A stretch of DNA of 38,423 bases from Dechloromonas sp. (lineage in GTDB: Bacteria > Pseudomonadota > Gammaproteobacteria > Burkholderiales > Rhodocyclaceae): contig JAFLDQ010000013.1 of assembly GCA_017302355.1 (NCBI GenBank), forward strand, positions 1 to 38,423. Reading direction: 5' to 3'. The notes under the pieces were generated by a model that was not told the DNA's origin, searched no databases, and saw only the letters and a list, made by a program, of their open reading frames with translations. The translations under genes were made by a program, and so were the position numbers. The first letter of the stretch is position 1; each line of letters starts with the position of its first letter. This document shows, one piece after another, positions 15,474-21,228 of the stretch.

Positions 15474-16364
15474 ATGAAGCGCGCACCGTTTGATCGATTC
15501 CTTCCCAGGCCTTGGGCGTTTTGCGCCCTGCTTGCCGTGGCCTCCTTCAGCAAGCTGGCAGTCGCCGACCCGGTCAGGAACGAAAAGGCGGCGGCCCTGC
15601 GCATCGAGGGACGCAGCTACGAGCATGGCGACACGGCAACGCGCGACCCCGCCAAGGCGGTGCGCCTCTATTGCGAGGCTTCGCGCCTGGGTGATGTCGA
15701 GGCGCAGTACAACCTGGGCTGGATGTACGCCCACGGGCGGGGCGTTCGGCGCGACGATGCGACCGCCGCCTACTTCTTCGCAATGGCTGCCAAGCAAGGC
15801 GATGCCCTGTCGCAGCGAATGCTGCGCCAGGTCGGTGAACCGTCTGGCAAGCCACCGGAGTGCCTATTCGACAGCGATGGACTCGACATGGTCGCGCAGG
15901 CGGCCCCCGATCGGCGCAAGGTCATGGAACTGGTCCTGAGACTGGCGCCGGAGTATGGCGTCTACCCACGGCTGGCGATGGCGGTGATCCGCACCGAATC
16001 CAATTTCAATCCCGGCGCCGTCTCACCCAAGAATGCGCAGGGGTTGATGCAGCTCATCCCGGAAACCGCCGAACGATTCAATGTCAAGAAGCCTTTCGAT
16101 CCCGAACAGAACATCCGCGGCGGATTGGCCTATTTGCGCTGGTTGCTGGCCTACTTCAAGGGGGATATCACCCTGGTTGCCGCTGCGTACAATGCCGGCG
16201 AGGGTGCCGTGAATCGCCATGCCGGCATTCCGCCCTACGCCGAGACACAGGGTTACGTGAAGCGCATCCGCGAAATCTTCAAGCACGACGAGCACCCCTA
16301 TGACCCGGCGGTGACCGCTCCCTCTCCCGACCTGCCAAGGATCGCCTCGCGCAGGATGATGTGA
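15474..16364 (+). CDS. Sel1-repeat lytic transglycosylase (SLT domain), secreted
   Basis: A 296-residue exported protein. A signal peptide ends around LAVADP. Two Sel1-like repeats follow (ALRIEGRSYEHG and YNLGWMYAHGRGVRRDDATA, to about residue 115). The C-terminal SLT domain has catalytic Glu175 in IRTESNFNPGAVSPKNAQG, then LMQLIPETAERFNV and AAYNAGEGAV, the hallmark blocks of family-1 lytic transglycosylases that cleave peptidoglycan to 1,6-anhydromuramyl products. Within an EPS locus it could open the wall for a trans-envelope machine (inference). AGGAG lies 8 bases before the ATG at 15474; a GTG three codons earlier is less likely. Its stop overlaps the GTG start of the next gene (GTGA). 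Confidence 0.88.
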   Translation: MKRAPFDRFLPRPWAFCALLAVASFSKLAVADPVRNEKAAALRIEGRSYEHGDTATRDPAKAVRLYCEASRLGDVEAQYNLGWMYAHGRGVRRDDATAAYFFAMAAKQGDALSQRMLRQVGEPSGKPPECLFDSDGLDMVAQAAPDRRKVMELVLRLAPEYGVYPRLAMAVIRTESNFNPGAVSPKNAQGLMQLIPETAERFNVKKPFDPEQNIRGGLAYLRWLLAYFKGDITLVAAAYNAGEGAVNRHAGIPPYAETQGYVKRIREIFKHDEHPYDPAVTAPSPDLPRIASRRMM

Positions 16365-16798
16365 ACCGCGCCAGACCCTCTTCCCGATTCCTGCTTGCAT
16401 TGCTTGCCTGCCTGTTGTCGGGGATGGCGTCAGCCGAACTGGTGGGATTCACCGGGTTCCCGATCGGCGGGGCGCTCGGCTTCTCGCCGGTGACCCATCG
16501 CGGTATGGTGTCATCGATCACTCCGATCGCGCTGCCCGCGGCGAATGCGCGGCAAGTCAATGAAAAGCTGGTTCGCCAGCTCAAGCGCGGATCATTCAGC
16601 ATCTTCCAGCTCGATGCCACCGCCTACCCCGGCAACAGCGGAAGCCCGGTATTCGATGCCGGCAGCGGCGAAGTCATCGGCATCATCAACATGGTGTTCA
16701 TCAAGGGCAGCAAGGAAGCGGCGCTGAGCCAGCCGTCCGGGATCACCTACGCGATCCCCGCGAATTACCTGAAAGACCTGCTGCTCAAGGCGCCGTGA
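16361..16798 (+). CDS. Shortened trypsin-like serine protease (C-terminal half only, with signal peptide)
   Basis: A 145-residue exported protein starting at GTG, overlapping the transglycosylase stop. A signal peptide (RFLLALLACLLSGMASA) is followed at once by LVGFTGFPIGGALGFSPVTH, which in full-length trypsin-like relatives lies in the second beta-barrel. The serine motif YPGNSGSPVFD (Ser93) and the GEVIGIINMVF block are intact. The first barrel, with the catalytic His and Asp of the family, is absent, so about 100 residues seem to be missing between the signal peptide and FTGFPIG. The frame is open throughout, so this is an in-frame internal deletion rather than a frameshift. It may be inactive, a remnant, or a binding module; an assembly error is also possible. 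Confidence 0.7.
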   Translation: MNRARPSSRFLLALLACLLSGMASAELVGFTGFPIGGALGFSPVTHRGMVSSITPIALPAANARQVNEKLVRQLKRGSFSIFQLDATAYPGNSGSPVFDAGSGEVIGIINMVFIKGSKEAALSQPSGITYAIPANYLKDLLLKAP

Positions 16799-16915: not shown

Positions 16916-17983
16916 TCATGCCTGCACACGCTTGACCGGTTGAAACCCGACCCACATCTTGTGCAGCAGGTGGATCAGGAGGAGGTTTGGTGGCAAACGC
17001 AGGGACATTTCCCGGACCATCAACAACCAGTCCGCCAGCTTCTGTCCGCGCATTCGCGTGTCCGGGTGACGTGAGTAAACCGCCTTTTCGACCAGCGTGA
17101 CGAAGGTGGTCGGCTCCCGTCTCAGCAAACGTTCATCGACCGGCGTGGAGAAGAAGTTCCGAGCCAGATAGAGCGCTTGCCGGAGAATCGTTTCCAGCCC
17201 GACTTCGGCGGAACGGGCGACAAGGCGTTTCGGGAACTCCGCCGAAACCGCTGAAAAATGGCGGAAGAGAAGGTCAATATCGCAGAGATCCCGCAGGCCG
17301 CGATTGAACTCTCCATTCAGCAGCAGATGGGCGGCCGCGTGCAGCAGGACATCCTCGTCCCGCAACCGCCAGAAATGCCCGCTCCCGGCAATCGGCACCG
17401 CATCGTCGATCATCCGCGAGGAATCGACGGCAATGCGGCACGTGGGCATGACGAGGGAATGGTGAAGATCGATCGTGGTGCCGCGATGCGTGTGAGTCAT
17501 TGGCGGAATCTCATGCGACCACTGTCGGTAGTAGCGGTCGTCGTACGGATCGAGCTGGCCCGTAATCCACCCGCCAAGCATCAGTTCGCTCTCGACGAGG
17601 GGTATCTGGTCGCCCGCGACGAGCAGATCGATATCGCTGAAGACCCGGCCATCCGCAACGGGCAAACCCAAAGCCACGTACGATGCGCCTTTCAGCAGCA
17701 GGACCGGCGCCTCGACACGAACCAGCGCGCTGCTGATCGATCGCAGTTCACGCTGCACGTCGCGGCGAAAGGCAGCCGATTGAATCAAGGCTGCCGCCAG
17801 GCTGCCTTGATGGCGTGGCGGGGCATTTCCGGCCATCGACGAACCGGGGATCCAGTGAGCGATCCGTGCCAGCATTCCCGCGTGCAGTGCCTCGGCGAGC
17901 ATGAGGCTCCACTCCTCGGCGGAGAAGGTGTCCGCCACCCGCCGATCCCGCAGGAAGCACATCAGGGGCGACGACTCAGGCAT
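16916..17983 (-). CDS. Nucleotidyltransferase-family protein (NTP_transf_5-like) of the HprK/PqqD cassette
   Basis: A 355-residue protein of the uncharacterised nucleotidyltransferase type (PF14907-like). The core is KGASYVALGLPVADGR followed by FSDIDLLV, giving the two metal-binding aspartates of the polymerase-beta fold (Asp117 and Asp119 with the start used here). A helical region with LLHAAAHLLLNGEF, DLCDIDLLFRHF and similar blocks follows. Proteins of this type occur next to HPr-kinase-like and PqqD-like genes, including in some lasso-peptide clusters, where they are thought to modify a peptide or its phosphate; the substrate here is unknown. The start could also be the ATG at 18001; the ATG at 17983 overlaps the kinase stop by 8 bp and fits the tight packing of this operon. 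Confidence 0.78.
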   Translation of the reverse strand: MPESSPLMCFLRDRRVADTFSAEEWSLMLAEALHAGMLARIAHWIPGSSMAGNAPPRHQGSLAAALIQSAAFRRDVQRELRSISSALVRVEAPVLLLKGASYVALGLPVADGRVFSDIDLLVAGDQIPLVESELMLGGWITGQLDPYDDRYYRQWSHEIPPMTHTHRGTTIDLHHSLVMPTCRIAVDSSRMIDDAVPIAGSGHFWRLRDEDVLLHAAAHLLLNGEFNRGLRDLCDIDLLFRHFSAVSAEFPKRLVARSAEVGLETILRQALYLARNFFSTPVDERLLRREPTTFVTLVEKAVYSRHPDTRMRGQKLADWLLMVREMSLRLPPNLLLIHLLHKMWVGFQPVKRVQA

Positions 17984-18890
17984 GCTGCTCGACAAGCTCA
18001 TTCAACGCGTCCCTGGCTTCATCGAGCGACGAGTACTCGATCTCCCAGGCCTCGGCAGAGCGGACCAGGCCGGCCAGCCTCTCAAAGCCGGATGCGCCGA
18101 GGGTCGAGTAATTGAACGACTGGTCGATCAGGCGCATGGCGGCCTGCCCCTGACCAACGGCACGGATGCCCAGTGAGGCGCCGTCCGTCCATTTCGGGAA
18201 GACGATCAAACGGGGTGTGGCGTTTTCGCTGCCCCGTCGGACCGAATCGCCGGGCGCCGGCAGGTGCGCAATACTCCCCTTGTGCGTATTGGTCGCCGGG
18301 GGGCCAAATACGGCCTCCGGATGTCTGCTCTGGATGAGATCGATGGATGAATTCTTCAGACTGACCGGTCGCACGCAAGGAATCAGTTCGAGATTCTCGT
18401 CCAGCAACGCAAGTTCGTCCGAGAGCAATCTCCAGCCGCTCAGCGCGAGTTCCGCCGCGAGGGTGCTCTTGCCGCTCCCGGACACCGCCGAGAGAAGAAC
18501 CCCGGCGCCGCGGGTCTCCAGGACAGCCGAGTGGAGTATCAGGTAGTTATGGGCGAACGAACCTATGGTCCAGTTCAGTCCCCACTCGAACAACGCGTGG
18601 GCGTGCCCCGCAGCGACAGGGAGAAAGGGGCGTTCCCCGGAAAGCTCGAACACGACATTGCGCGCAAGGTAACGGCGAAGCCAATTGGGCGGCGCGATGG
18701 TGATATCGAAGTCGTATTCGCCACCATTCACTGCACATGGATGCCGGCCATAGAGCGTCCTGAGTGCCTGCGGAAAGTCAGGGATGGCGCTCGTGACCTT
18801 GACCCTCAGGCGTCCGATGTCGAGACGGAAGCGACCCTGCCGCATCGCCTCATCGAGGTCTCGTCCGGAAAAGTCCTGAACGGTCAGCAA
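17976..18890 (-). CDS. HprK-related kinase A (P-loop kinase of the HPr-rel-A type)
   Basis: A 304-residue protein related to the catalytic domain of HPr kinase/phosphorylase. LILHSAVLE precedes the Walker A loop SGSGKST (residues 137-143), and LLSDELALLDENLELI lies about 15 residues later, as in HprK. It lacks the N-terminal domain of true HprK and there is no HPr/PTS gene nearby, so it probably phosphorylates something else, most simply the product of the neighbouring cassette genes. It starts with TTG, overlapping the PqqD-like gene by 7 bp, and its stop overlaps the nucleotidyltransferase start, so all are likely translated together. The family match (TIGR04352 by recollection) is fairly sure; the substrate is unknown. 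Confidence 0.82.
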   Translation of the reverse strand: MLTVQDFSGRDLDEAMRQGRFRLDIGRLRVKVTSAIPDFPQALRTLYGRHPCAVNGGEYDFDITIAPPNWLRRYLARNVVFELSGERPFLPVAAGHAHALFEWGLNWTIGSFAHNYLILHSAVLETRGAGVLLSAVSGSGKSTLAAELALSGWRLLSDELALLDENLELIPCVRPVSLKNSSIDLIQSRHPEAVFGPPATNTHKGSIAHLPAPGDSVRRGSENATPRLIVFPKWTDGASLGIRAVGQGQAAMRLIDQSFNYSTLGASGFERLAGLVRSAEAWEIEYSSLDEARDALNELVEQHA

Positions 18891-19132
18891 TCCGGGAAAT
18901 GCCCCAGGCTGGAAATGAATCCCTGGAGTTCGCGGTCTCCCGTGTCGCTTTCCCCGATCCGCCTTCGCAGGAAATCGAGTAGCAGCGACCGTTCGAACGG
19001 AAGCAGGGACGTGTCTCCAGTTGCGGCGTCAAACACGAGCACGCCGTCATCTACCGGGCGAAAAGTGATATGCAAAAAAACATTGGGGTTGGCAATGCCA
19101 ACCCCGGATTCTGAGTCATTCGCGAACAACAT
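18884..19132 (-). CDS. PqqD-like peptide chaperone of the HPr-rel-A system
   Basis: An 82-residue protein with the winged-helix PqqD/RRE pattern: a beta-rich N-terminal part (VFLHITFRPVDDGVLVFDAATG) followed by SLLPFERSLLLDFL, where the dividing-line valine/leucine strands and helix match small PqqD-family proteins that bind leader peptides. In RiPP pathways such proteins deliver a precursor to a modifying enzyme. Its ATG shares a base with the stop of the Tat-leader gene (TGATG) and its own stop overlaps the kinase start, so it stands between the putative substrate and the kinase. Assignment rests on length, fold pattern and context; the sequence itself is divergent. Confidence 0.68.
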   Translation of the reverse strand: MLFANDSESGVGIANPNVFLHITFRPVDDGVLVFDAATGDTSLLPFERSLLLDFLRRRIGESDTGDRELQGFISSLGHFPDC

Positions 19133-19719
19133 CAGACCATTGTCGCCCTCTTGATGTATTCGACGATCTGCGGCGCACCCCAGAAGACTCCGGCGACCGG
19201 CTGATAATTTCCGTTACGGCCAGCCCACATGCTCTTCATGGTCTCCAAGCTCAAAACGGAAGCGGGAACTTTTCCGGTTTGCAGGTTGCACCACGCGGCG
19301 CACAAATGCGAACCCAATTTGAAAGGATCGTCCTGGCCTTTCGATGCCAGGACATCCTTCAGCGTCTTTCCATTAAAACCATCGCTAGCGGAAAAGCATG
19401 CGGAAAAATACCGGTCCTCCGCGCCGCAGCCTTTCCAGTGTCCATGATGAGCGCTCTTCTCGTTCGAAGCCTCTTTCCAGAAATCGGGACGCTTGCCGAA
19501 GCACTCAGACCCCCTCCGGCGATCCGGCCTGCTGCGATCGAGGGCGATCGACGCCTGTGCCGAGGGCGAAAGGCAGGTACTGGCCAACGCCGAGCGCGAG
19601 GCCACCGTCAGGATGACCGGGGTCGCAATCCCGACACCGCGAACGAAACGGCGCCGCCCCGCAGACTTCGAGTCCATTCCGGCCTGGCCGGAACCCACTT
19701 GGTTTGATTGATCACGCAT
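19132..19719 (-). CDS. Tat-leader Cys-containing exported protein, candidate substrate of the HprK/PqqD cassette
   Basis: A 195-residue protein with a twin-arginine-type leader: GRRRFVRG (residues 21-28), a hydrophobic stretch VGIATPVILTVA and a cleavage-like site SALAS. The mature part begins with a cysteine block TCLSPSAQASIAL and contains six cysteines (49, 73, 98, 108, 140, 144). Further recognisable blocks are CFGKRPDFW, LGSHLCAAWCNLQTG and SMWAGRNGNYQP near the C terminus. I recall similar unnamed proteins beside other HprK-A/PqqD cassettes, but cannot verify this. It is first in the operon and preceded by AGGTGA at a good distance. It may be the modified substrate or an export partner. 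An inner ATG at 19677 is possible, but the stronger ribosome-binding site supports 19719. Confidence 0.72.
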   Translation of the reverse strand: MRDQSNQVGSGQAGMDSKSAGRRRFVRGVGIATPVILTVASRSALASTCLSPSAQASIALDRSRPDRRRGSECFGKRPDFWKEASNEKSAHHGHWKGCGAEDRYFSACFSASDGFNGKTLKDVLASKGQDDPFKLGSHLCAAWCNLQTGKVPASVLSLETMKSMWAGRNGNYQPVAGVFWGAPQIVEYIKRATMV

Positions 19720-21051: not shown

Positions 21052-21128
21052 TGGCGTGCCCGGAGGGACTCGAACCCCCGACCTGCTGCTTAGAAGGCAG
21101 CTGCTCTATCCAGTTGAGCTACGGGCAC
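21052..21128 (-). tRNA. tRNA-Arg (anticodon TCT)
   Basis: A full cloverleaf reads on the minus strand: acceptor GTGCCCG/CGGGCAC, D-arm GCTC...GAGC, anticodon loop CTTCTAA with anticodon TCT, and T-arm with TTCGAGT. The 3' CCA is encoded (21052-21054) after discriminator G. It decodes AGA and lies 23 bp downstream of tRNA-Pro, probably in one transcript. Confidence 0.95.
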
Positions 21129-21151
21129 CTGCCGGGGAAGCACGGAGGAAT

Positions 21152-21228
21152 TGGTCGGGGCGGTGGGATTCGAACTCACGACCCTCTGCTCCCAAAGCAG
21201 ATGCGCTACCAGGCTGCGCTACGCCCCG
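21152..21228 (-). tRNA. tRNA-Pro (anticodon TGG)
   Basis: A full cloverleaf reads on the minus strand: acceptor CGGGGCG/CGCCCCG, D-arm GCGC...GCGC, anticodon stem TCTGC/GCAGA around loop TTTGGGA with anticodon TGG, and T-loop TTCGAAT. It ends with discriminator A and an encoded CCA. The first base is C1, as usual for bacterial proline tRNA. Confidence 0.95.

Follow-up and report, generated by a model that had tools for sequence, protein, structure and literature searches.

The window analysed here, a stretch of 38,423 nucleotides from Dechloromonas sp. (contig JAFLDQ010000013.1), carries on its minus strand, at positions 16916-19719, a cassette of four genes that encode, in order, a protein with a twin-arginine translocation (Tat) signal peptide, a PqqD-like protein, an HprK-related kinase, and a nucleotidyltransferase (NTase). 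The Tat and PqqD-like genes share 1 base (TGATG), the PqqD-like and kinase genes overlap by 7 bases, and the kinase and NTase genes by 26 bases. The four overlapping genes reported in a preliminary description of this DNA were thus confirmed, with their coordinates, from the open reading frames (ORFs) of the window, as was the 195-residue length of the Tat-type protein and its six cysteines. The description had read the cassette as a system that modifies a peptide before export; its observation stands, and at the level of sequence the interpretation is upheld for the genes and their motifs, the chemistry being unproven.

The Tat protein genuinely belongs to the cassette as its fourth component. 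A scan of genome contigs with the kinase alignment gave at least 104 relatives, the best 80 of which were taken as kinase loci; iterated profiles run on their ORFs detected the kinase in all 80 and the NTase in 79; the Tat family was detected in 75 and PqqD in 65, and in 13 further loci an ORF of 68-160 amino acids occupies the PqqD position, an assignment made by position only. The Tat gene lies upstream and on the same strand in 74 of its 75 loci, that of locus L043 being downstream on the opposite strand. The five loci that gave no Tat profile match comprise three with little or no upstream sequence (L004, L051, and L064) and two that are unexplained (L056 and L079); in L056, from Vibrio hannami, the NTase match is split over two ORFs. 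Elsewhere, two tandem Tat-leader genes precede a single PqqD-kinase-NTase set (L048, 6047-7482). The set of genes is met again in Beta-, Gamma-, and Alphaproteobacterial loci and in loci of Planctomycetes, and is therefore more than a chance arrangement.

Whole-genome searches point in the same direction. In 20 kinase-locus genomes searched in full, the Tat gene was close to the kinase in all 20, and no leader-bearing Tat gene was found elsewhere in them save for a divergent second cassette in one genome (G017). A larger set was drawn from the order to which Dechloromonas SSD3 belongs: of its 300 genomes, 50 are above the kinase cut-off and 250 below it (36 of the latter carry weak kinase matches under the cut-off). 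No more than 7, 11, and 8 candidates were scored per genome in the searches for the kinase, the Tat protein, and XrtA, respectively. A profile-detected Tat gene lies within 1.7 kb of the kinase on the same strand in 37 of the 50 kinase genomes (upstream in 31, downstream in 6) versus none of the 250 others (Fisher test, 1e-36). Reading of the upstream region by eye, which covered the 13 profile-negative kinase genomes, the kinase-negative ones being judged by profile alone, revealed a Tat-leader ORF in all 13, such that 50 of 50 kinase genomes carry this gene beside the kinase. In one of the 37 profile-positive genomes (G068) the profile match missed the leader, and the ORF carries a twin-arginine stretch. 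No leader-bearing Tat match was detected by profile in the 250 sub-cut-off genomes, in which the two matches were to the core only, within ORFs of more than 1000 amino acids. Co-occurrence across genomes, put forward earlier as a check, has thus been examined, and it argues against a Tat protein that is not conserved with the three other genes.

The window protein displays the two features expected of a Tat substrate, a twin-arginine stretch (RRRF) and an AxA cleavage site (SRSALA), and its export is predicted. Its leader was compared with those of its relatives in a set of 76 that includes the window and leaves out L073, which lacks the twin arginine (RR); cleavage sites were assigned by a simple rule, and the predicted site lies 24-26 residues from the RR in 59 of the 76, some of the leaders outside this spacing having been counted from an inner RR. 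A proline at RR+10 to +13 occurs in 57 of the 76 family leaders versus none of 30 ordinary Tat signals (p 8e-14), the latter being 30 of 93 matches, from ten of the same genomes, that lean to the canonical consensus. The looser pattern P-x-x-[LMVIFA]-[TSALM] is present in 51 of the 76, in 13 of 13 divergent leaders, and in none of the ordinary signals, and all 13 divergent leaders carry a proline at RR+9 to +13. The leader is, in addition, conserved to a degree unusual for a Tat signal.

Beyond the leader, the Tat protein matches no Pfam or NCBIfam family, and eight Tat-type or substrate-position proteins that were scanned gave no NCBIfam model above cut-off. In an alignment of 58 Tat proteins, 48 of which come from the kinase loci (out of 76 Tat ORFs), R22, R23, and S53 are the only invariant columns, with C49, S57, and W81 conserved at 90% or more; in a 62-row set nearer the window, the invariant positions besides the RR are S53, S57, and N145. 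The pattern C-x(2,3)-S...S follows the cleavage site in 61 of 76 family members and in none of the 30 ordinary Tat proteins. In the AlphaFold2 (AF2) model, the predicted local distance difference test score (pLDDT) is 81-92 per ten-residue block from residue 71 onwards, and residues 1-22, 24-46, and 60-64 fall below 50. A low-confidence N-terminus followed by a predicted helical domain fits the modification of a flexible segment in a protein whose folding precedes export. A Foldseek search of this model against the PDB gave no match under an E value of 6. The core of the protein is also found inside ORFs of 1046-2888 amino acids, and the mature domain (GxTPGFWKNH...AALLNA) lies within ORFs of 1295 and 1577 amino acids in loci L096 and L097. 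The single giant ORF scanned, that of L096, also holds SdrD_B and SpaA-type domains, which hints, and no more, at an extracellular role.

The three enzyme-like partners show relationships to peptide modification clusters. A profile of 55 PqqD-like proteins finds its best PDB matches in two lasso-peptide RiPP recognition elements (RREs), TfuB1 (6.5e-6) and TbiB1 (2e-4), and RRE structures rank first, with weak scores, for the AF2 model of the PqqD-like protein (pLDDT 74). The kinase scores 314.2 bits against TIGR04352, above the curated cut-off of 200, and its H120, K141, D158, and E159 are kept in 39 of 39 aligned rows; that these residues are catalytic rests on the alignment with HprK and on the published His-Lys-Asp-Asp of lasso kinases (PMC9266682, in the part drawn on here). 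Over 193 columns, the 39-row kinase alignment matches a kinase that belongs to a lasso-type cluster in Dechloromonas SSD3, which is closely related to the window (hhalign 98.5%, 2.7e-15). This cluster (L099, 3431-10994) holds a cyclase-like gene, a leader peptide, and two HprK-like kinases; its leader peptide is above cut-off for the lasso model (20.9 bits versus 19), and its cyclase (408 versus 525) and PqqD protein (47 versus 80) are below. The NTase belongs to PF14907 (147 bits) and keeps its K-G, R, D-x-D, and D-x-H motifs in 35 of 35 aligned sequences; its profile gave no match in the PDB. On a plasmid of Deinococcus psychrotolerans (L083, 4782-6122), PF14907 occurs in one fusion protein with a lasso B2 protease, both above cut-off. 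The resemblance to lasso-peptide clusters that had been suggested earlier is borne out for the RRE and the kinase.

Table 1. Features of the cassette and two nearby elements in the window (residues are those of the encoded protein)
Feature	Position	Strand	Remarks
Tat-leader protein gene, proposed substrate	19132..19719	-	195 aa
Tat signal peptide, residues 1-46	19582..19719	-	cleavage predicted by AxA rule after SRSALA
Twin arginine R22-R23	19651..19656	-	invariant in the 58-protein alignment
P34-V-I-L-T38 in hydrophobic region, proposed RRE-binding stretch, Pro at -13	19606..19620	-	leader comparison
Mature N-terminus S47-S57 (STCLSPSAQAS), proposed acceptor stretch	19549..19581	-	S53 invariant, C49 and S57 >=90% in the 58-protein alignment
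Predicted folded helical domain, about residues 65-195	19135..19527	-	AF2 pLDDT
PqqD-like / RRE protein	18884..19132	-	82 aa
HprK-related kinase A (TIGR04352)	17976..18890	-	TTG start; H120, K141, D158, E159 invariant
PF14907 nucleotidyltransferase	16916..18001	-	K104-G105, R119, D123-x-D125, D178-x-H180 invariant
Trypsin-like exported protease	16361..16798	+	
tRNA-Arg(tct) and tRNA-Pro(tgg) pair	21052..21228	-	directly past GalE

Two groups of known pathways resemble the cassette. The linear polyphosphorylated peptides (LPPs), which have been called restricted to Bacillota (Popov et al. 2026, PMC13381572), are described in the sections of that paper drawn on here as involving a separate RRE, an HprK-like kinase, and an NTP transferase; in the cassette, likewise, kinase and transferase stand in one cluster. 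LPP precursors are of 35-200 amino acids, with a conserved N-terminus and a variable C-terminus, and carry directly past the leader a serine, which is phosphorylated; the location in polysaccharide loci is also shared. Their motif, YxxPxVLxHQxIxFET|xxS, places, by our count, a proline at -13, a leucine at -10, residue -1 at Pro+12, and the phosphorylated serine at Pro+15. LppK modifies Ser3 of the core, and not its S3T or S3Y variants. The cassette differs in that its leader is a Tat signal peptide, its substrate in the window is predicted to fold, and its hosts are Gram-negative; the LPP paper contains neither the word Tat nor the word proteobacteria. An SpI-like peptidase and an MsbA-like transporter are both missing from the four genes and from the matches of the larger window ORFs scanned. 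In the phosphorylated and glycosylated lasso peptides paeninodin and pseudomycoidin, as reported in part of PMC9266682, an HprK-like kinase acts on a precursor serine before maturation; PadeK and ThcoK phosphorylate such a serine, and the pseudomycoidin NTase PsmN attaches one hexose or two to the phosphoserine. Here the differences lie in the kinase, with an invariant D-E in the cassette versus D-D in the lasso enzymes, and in the acceptor, whose expected place in the core is close to the N-terminus, versus the C-terminus in lasso peptides. Neither a lasso macrolactam cyclase nor a B2 leader peptidase occurs among the four genes or in the scanned window ORFs. These scans for peptidase, transporter, and lasso genes were run at E 0.1 or only at E 1e-20, and several ORFs remained matchless. 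The cassette is not classed as an LPP or a lasso cluster, because the defining features looked for were not found, but by analogy it very likely works like one.

In terms of nomenclature, the closest entry is the HPr-rel-A system of NCBIfam (TIGR04352 and TIGR04353), which the cassette resembles in its above-cut-off kinase and adjoining PqqD-like gene, and whose names stand on a plasmid record (L081) for such a cassette; it differs in that the window PqqD-like protein is below the TIGR04353 cut-off and the Tat substrate has no NCBIfam model. The likeness to HprK itself extends to the ATP-binding core, where the His, the P-loop, and the Asp align, whereas the match is confined to approximately 45 core residues and the cassette includes no HPr gene. 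Searches of the open-licence PMC literature found no paper on the HPr-rel-A names, on HprK with PqqD and exosortase, on PF14907, or on the combination of twin arginine, RRE, and leader peptide.

Further indications come from divergent and short relatives. Among the 13 divergent Tat leaders, 11 have an alanine at Pro+12 and 11 a serine at Pro+15; the Pro-to-cleavage and the Pro-to-Ser spacing each equal that of the LPPs in 11 of the 13. Azohydromonas lata harbors a second, divergent cassette (L098, 1395-4207) with a 74-residue Tat-leader peptide whose leader reads YVAPAIL, the canonical RRE motif. Its PqqD protein is above the PF05402 cut-off, its kinase matches TIGR04352 and PF07475 below cut-off, and its PF14907 NTase is on the opposite strand. 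The 110 short homologues of this peptide, considered as sequences alone, share the leader: [YFW]xxP is present in 110 of 110, as is the combination of Ala at Pro+12 and Ser at Pro+16. The link to short peptides comes from a single cassette, because the search of the 300 genomes found the L098-type peptide solely in its own genome. In other relatives the Tat leader is followed by only about 7 residues (L080, 7411-7605), 23 (L065, 3119-3385), or 29 (L063, 7369-7608). The earlier statement that the substrate is not a short RiPP (ribosomally synthesized and post-translationally modified peptide) precursor consequently holds for the window locus and fails for these three, since cassette relatives carry substrates of approximately 7-30 residues past the leader.

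The best reading of these data, by analogy, is that the cassette represents a Gram-negative, Tat-exported counterpart of the LPP and phospho-lasso pathways, with the Tat signal serving at the same time as the modification leader. We consider it probable, with moderate confidence, that it is a peptide-modification system acting on a Tat-exported protein through RRE-leader binding, serine phosphorylation, and an NTase step. The PqqD-like RRE would bind the Tat signal peptide; the probable contact is a pairing with the hydrophobic stretch, which is led by the proline and prone to form a strand. The RRE would bring the HprK-related kinase close to the flexible segment, rich in serine, past the cleavage site, where the kinase may phosphorylate the conserved serine (S53 in the window locus, with S57 as a second choice). 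In what is the weakest step of this scheme, the PF14907 enzyme could then extend the phosphoserine with a hexose or a nucleotide; the nucleotidylation suggested earlier is thus one option only, in view of the hexoses reported for PsmN. The modified protein, with its folded helical domain, would leave via Tat, and signal peptidase would expose a tagged N-terminus outside the cytoplasm, beside an exosortase-type extracellular polysaccharide (EPS) system. A bolder version, which we put forward tentatively as less likely than its opposite, gives one signal peptide two jobs: the Tat hydrophobic stretch would be the RRE-binding leader, and the RRE would hold the protein off Tat until a phospho-glycosyl tag is placed on the N-terminal serine, after which the folded, tagged protein would be exported, perhaps to anchor extracellular polysaccharide through a phosphodiester link.

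Several observations weigh against the proposed modification system. The proline is absent from the RR+10 to +13 interval in 19 of the 76 leaders, and its absence showed no link, within these 76, to an undetected PqqD (p 0.17). The window leader, IATPVIL, lacks the aromatic residue of [Y/W]xxP and departs from the YxxPxVL of the LPPs. The PqqD-like protein of the window scores 19.0 bits against TIGR04353 (cut-off 35; 54.7 bits for its relative in L013), and because of this score its identity rests on the iterated family profile. Deletion of lppN, the LPP NTase gene, had no effect in the host test reported in the part of PMC13381572 drawn on here. The invariance of S53 is valid for the 58-protein alignment only, because this omits most divergent members (most of the Alphaproteobacterial, Planctomycete, Vibrio, and Alteromonas ones), and the C-x(2,3)-S...S pattern is absent in 15 of 76, including Alphaproteobacterial and Planctomycete members. 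Finally, at Pro+15 and Pro+16 the window type has Cys at frequencies of 0.32 and 0.26 versus 0.16 and 0.19 for Ser, and because Cys is the commoner residue there, a role for Cys or for another Ser is possible. This last point, together with the conservation of C49 noted above, favors a scheme in which the modified residue is C49 or another nucleophile and the HprK-like protein acts unlike its lasso relatives. Such a scheme is, however, improbable, the least likely of the alternatives weighed here: in all 13 divergent relatives and all 110 short ones, Cys is absent from Pro+15 and Pro+16, and most have Ser at one of these positions, and the preference of LppK for Ser3 also speaks against it.

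A different explanation is suggested by the genomic setting, in which the kinase and NTase would make or charge a small molecule, such as a nucleotide-activated EPS sugar, with the PqqD-like and Tat proteins merely co-transcribed or serving as carriers. The cassette is set in an EPS locus of the exosortase A / PEP-CTERM type, in line with the earlier description, with neighbor genes for hydr1_PEP, hydr2_PEP, ligase_PEP_1, dCO2ase_PEP1, an EpsB-type transferase, PrsK, a PEP-CTERM response regulator, and PrsT. XrtA is above cut-off in 47 of the 50 kinase genomes versus 26 of the 250 others, and tblastn matches some window EPS gene in 44 of the 80 kinase loci, a count to which weak hits on generic ligases and regulators contribute; in the 11 Alphaproteobacterial and Planctomycete loci, a single weak ligase match is all that is found of the EPS genes. 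The cassette-EPS link is thus strong, but not complete. These observations suit a small-molecule product, which we nevertheless regard as unlikely, given that the Tat gene goes together with the kinase, that the proline of the leader's hydrophobic region is unseen in the 30 ordinary Tat signals, and that the kinase aligns with lasso-type peptide kinases. Slightly less likely still is a Tat-specific chaperone and maturation system, in which the PqqD-like protein would be a signal-peptide chaperone and the kinase and NTase would regulate export or the control of folding, with no lasting tag left behind. The position of the PqqD-like gene directly after the Tat gene and the unusual conservation of the leader would both be accommodated, but the conserved serine past the cleavage site and the LPP-like spacing would be left unexplained.

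Other elements of the window lie close to the cassette. Upstream of GalE are genes for polynucleotide phosphorylase, IF-2, and NusA, and a tRNA pair lies directly past GalE. The trypsin-like exported protease of the window consists of a signal peptide joined straight to a C-terminal half, without the His/Asp half. Relatives are present in 29 of the 80 kinase loci; 28 are of 247-322 amino acids and one is cut by a contig end, and all six that were read carry the H, D, and S motifs.

If the cassette does act as a peptide-modification system on a Tat-exported protein, peptide modification by a kinase and an RRE would extend from short peptides of Bacillota to folded, Tat-exported proteins of Gram-negative bacteria, and the unexplained HPr-rel-A system of NCBIfam would gain both a substrate and a site. 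The additions made by PF14907 enzymes, the use of a Tat signal as a modification leader, and the tagging of an exported protein at an exosortase-type EPS locus would likewise become testable.

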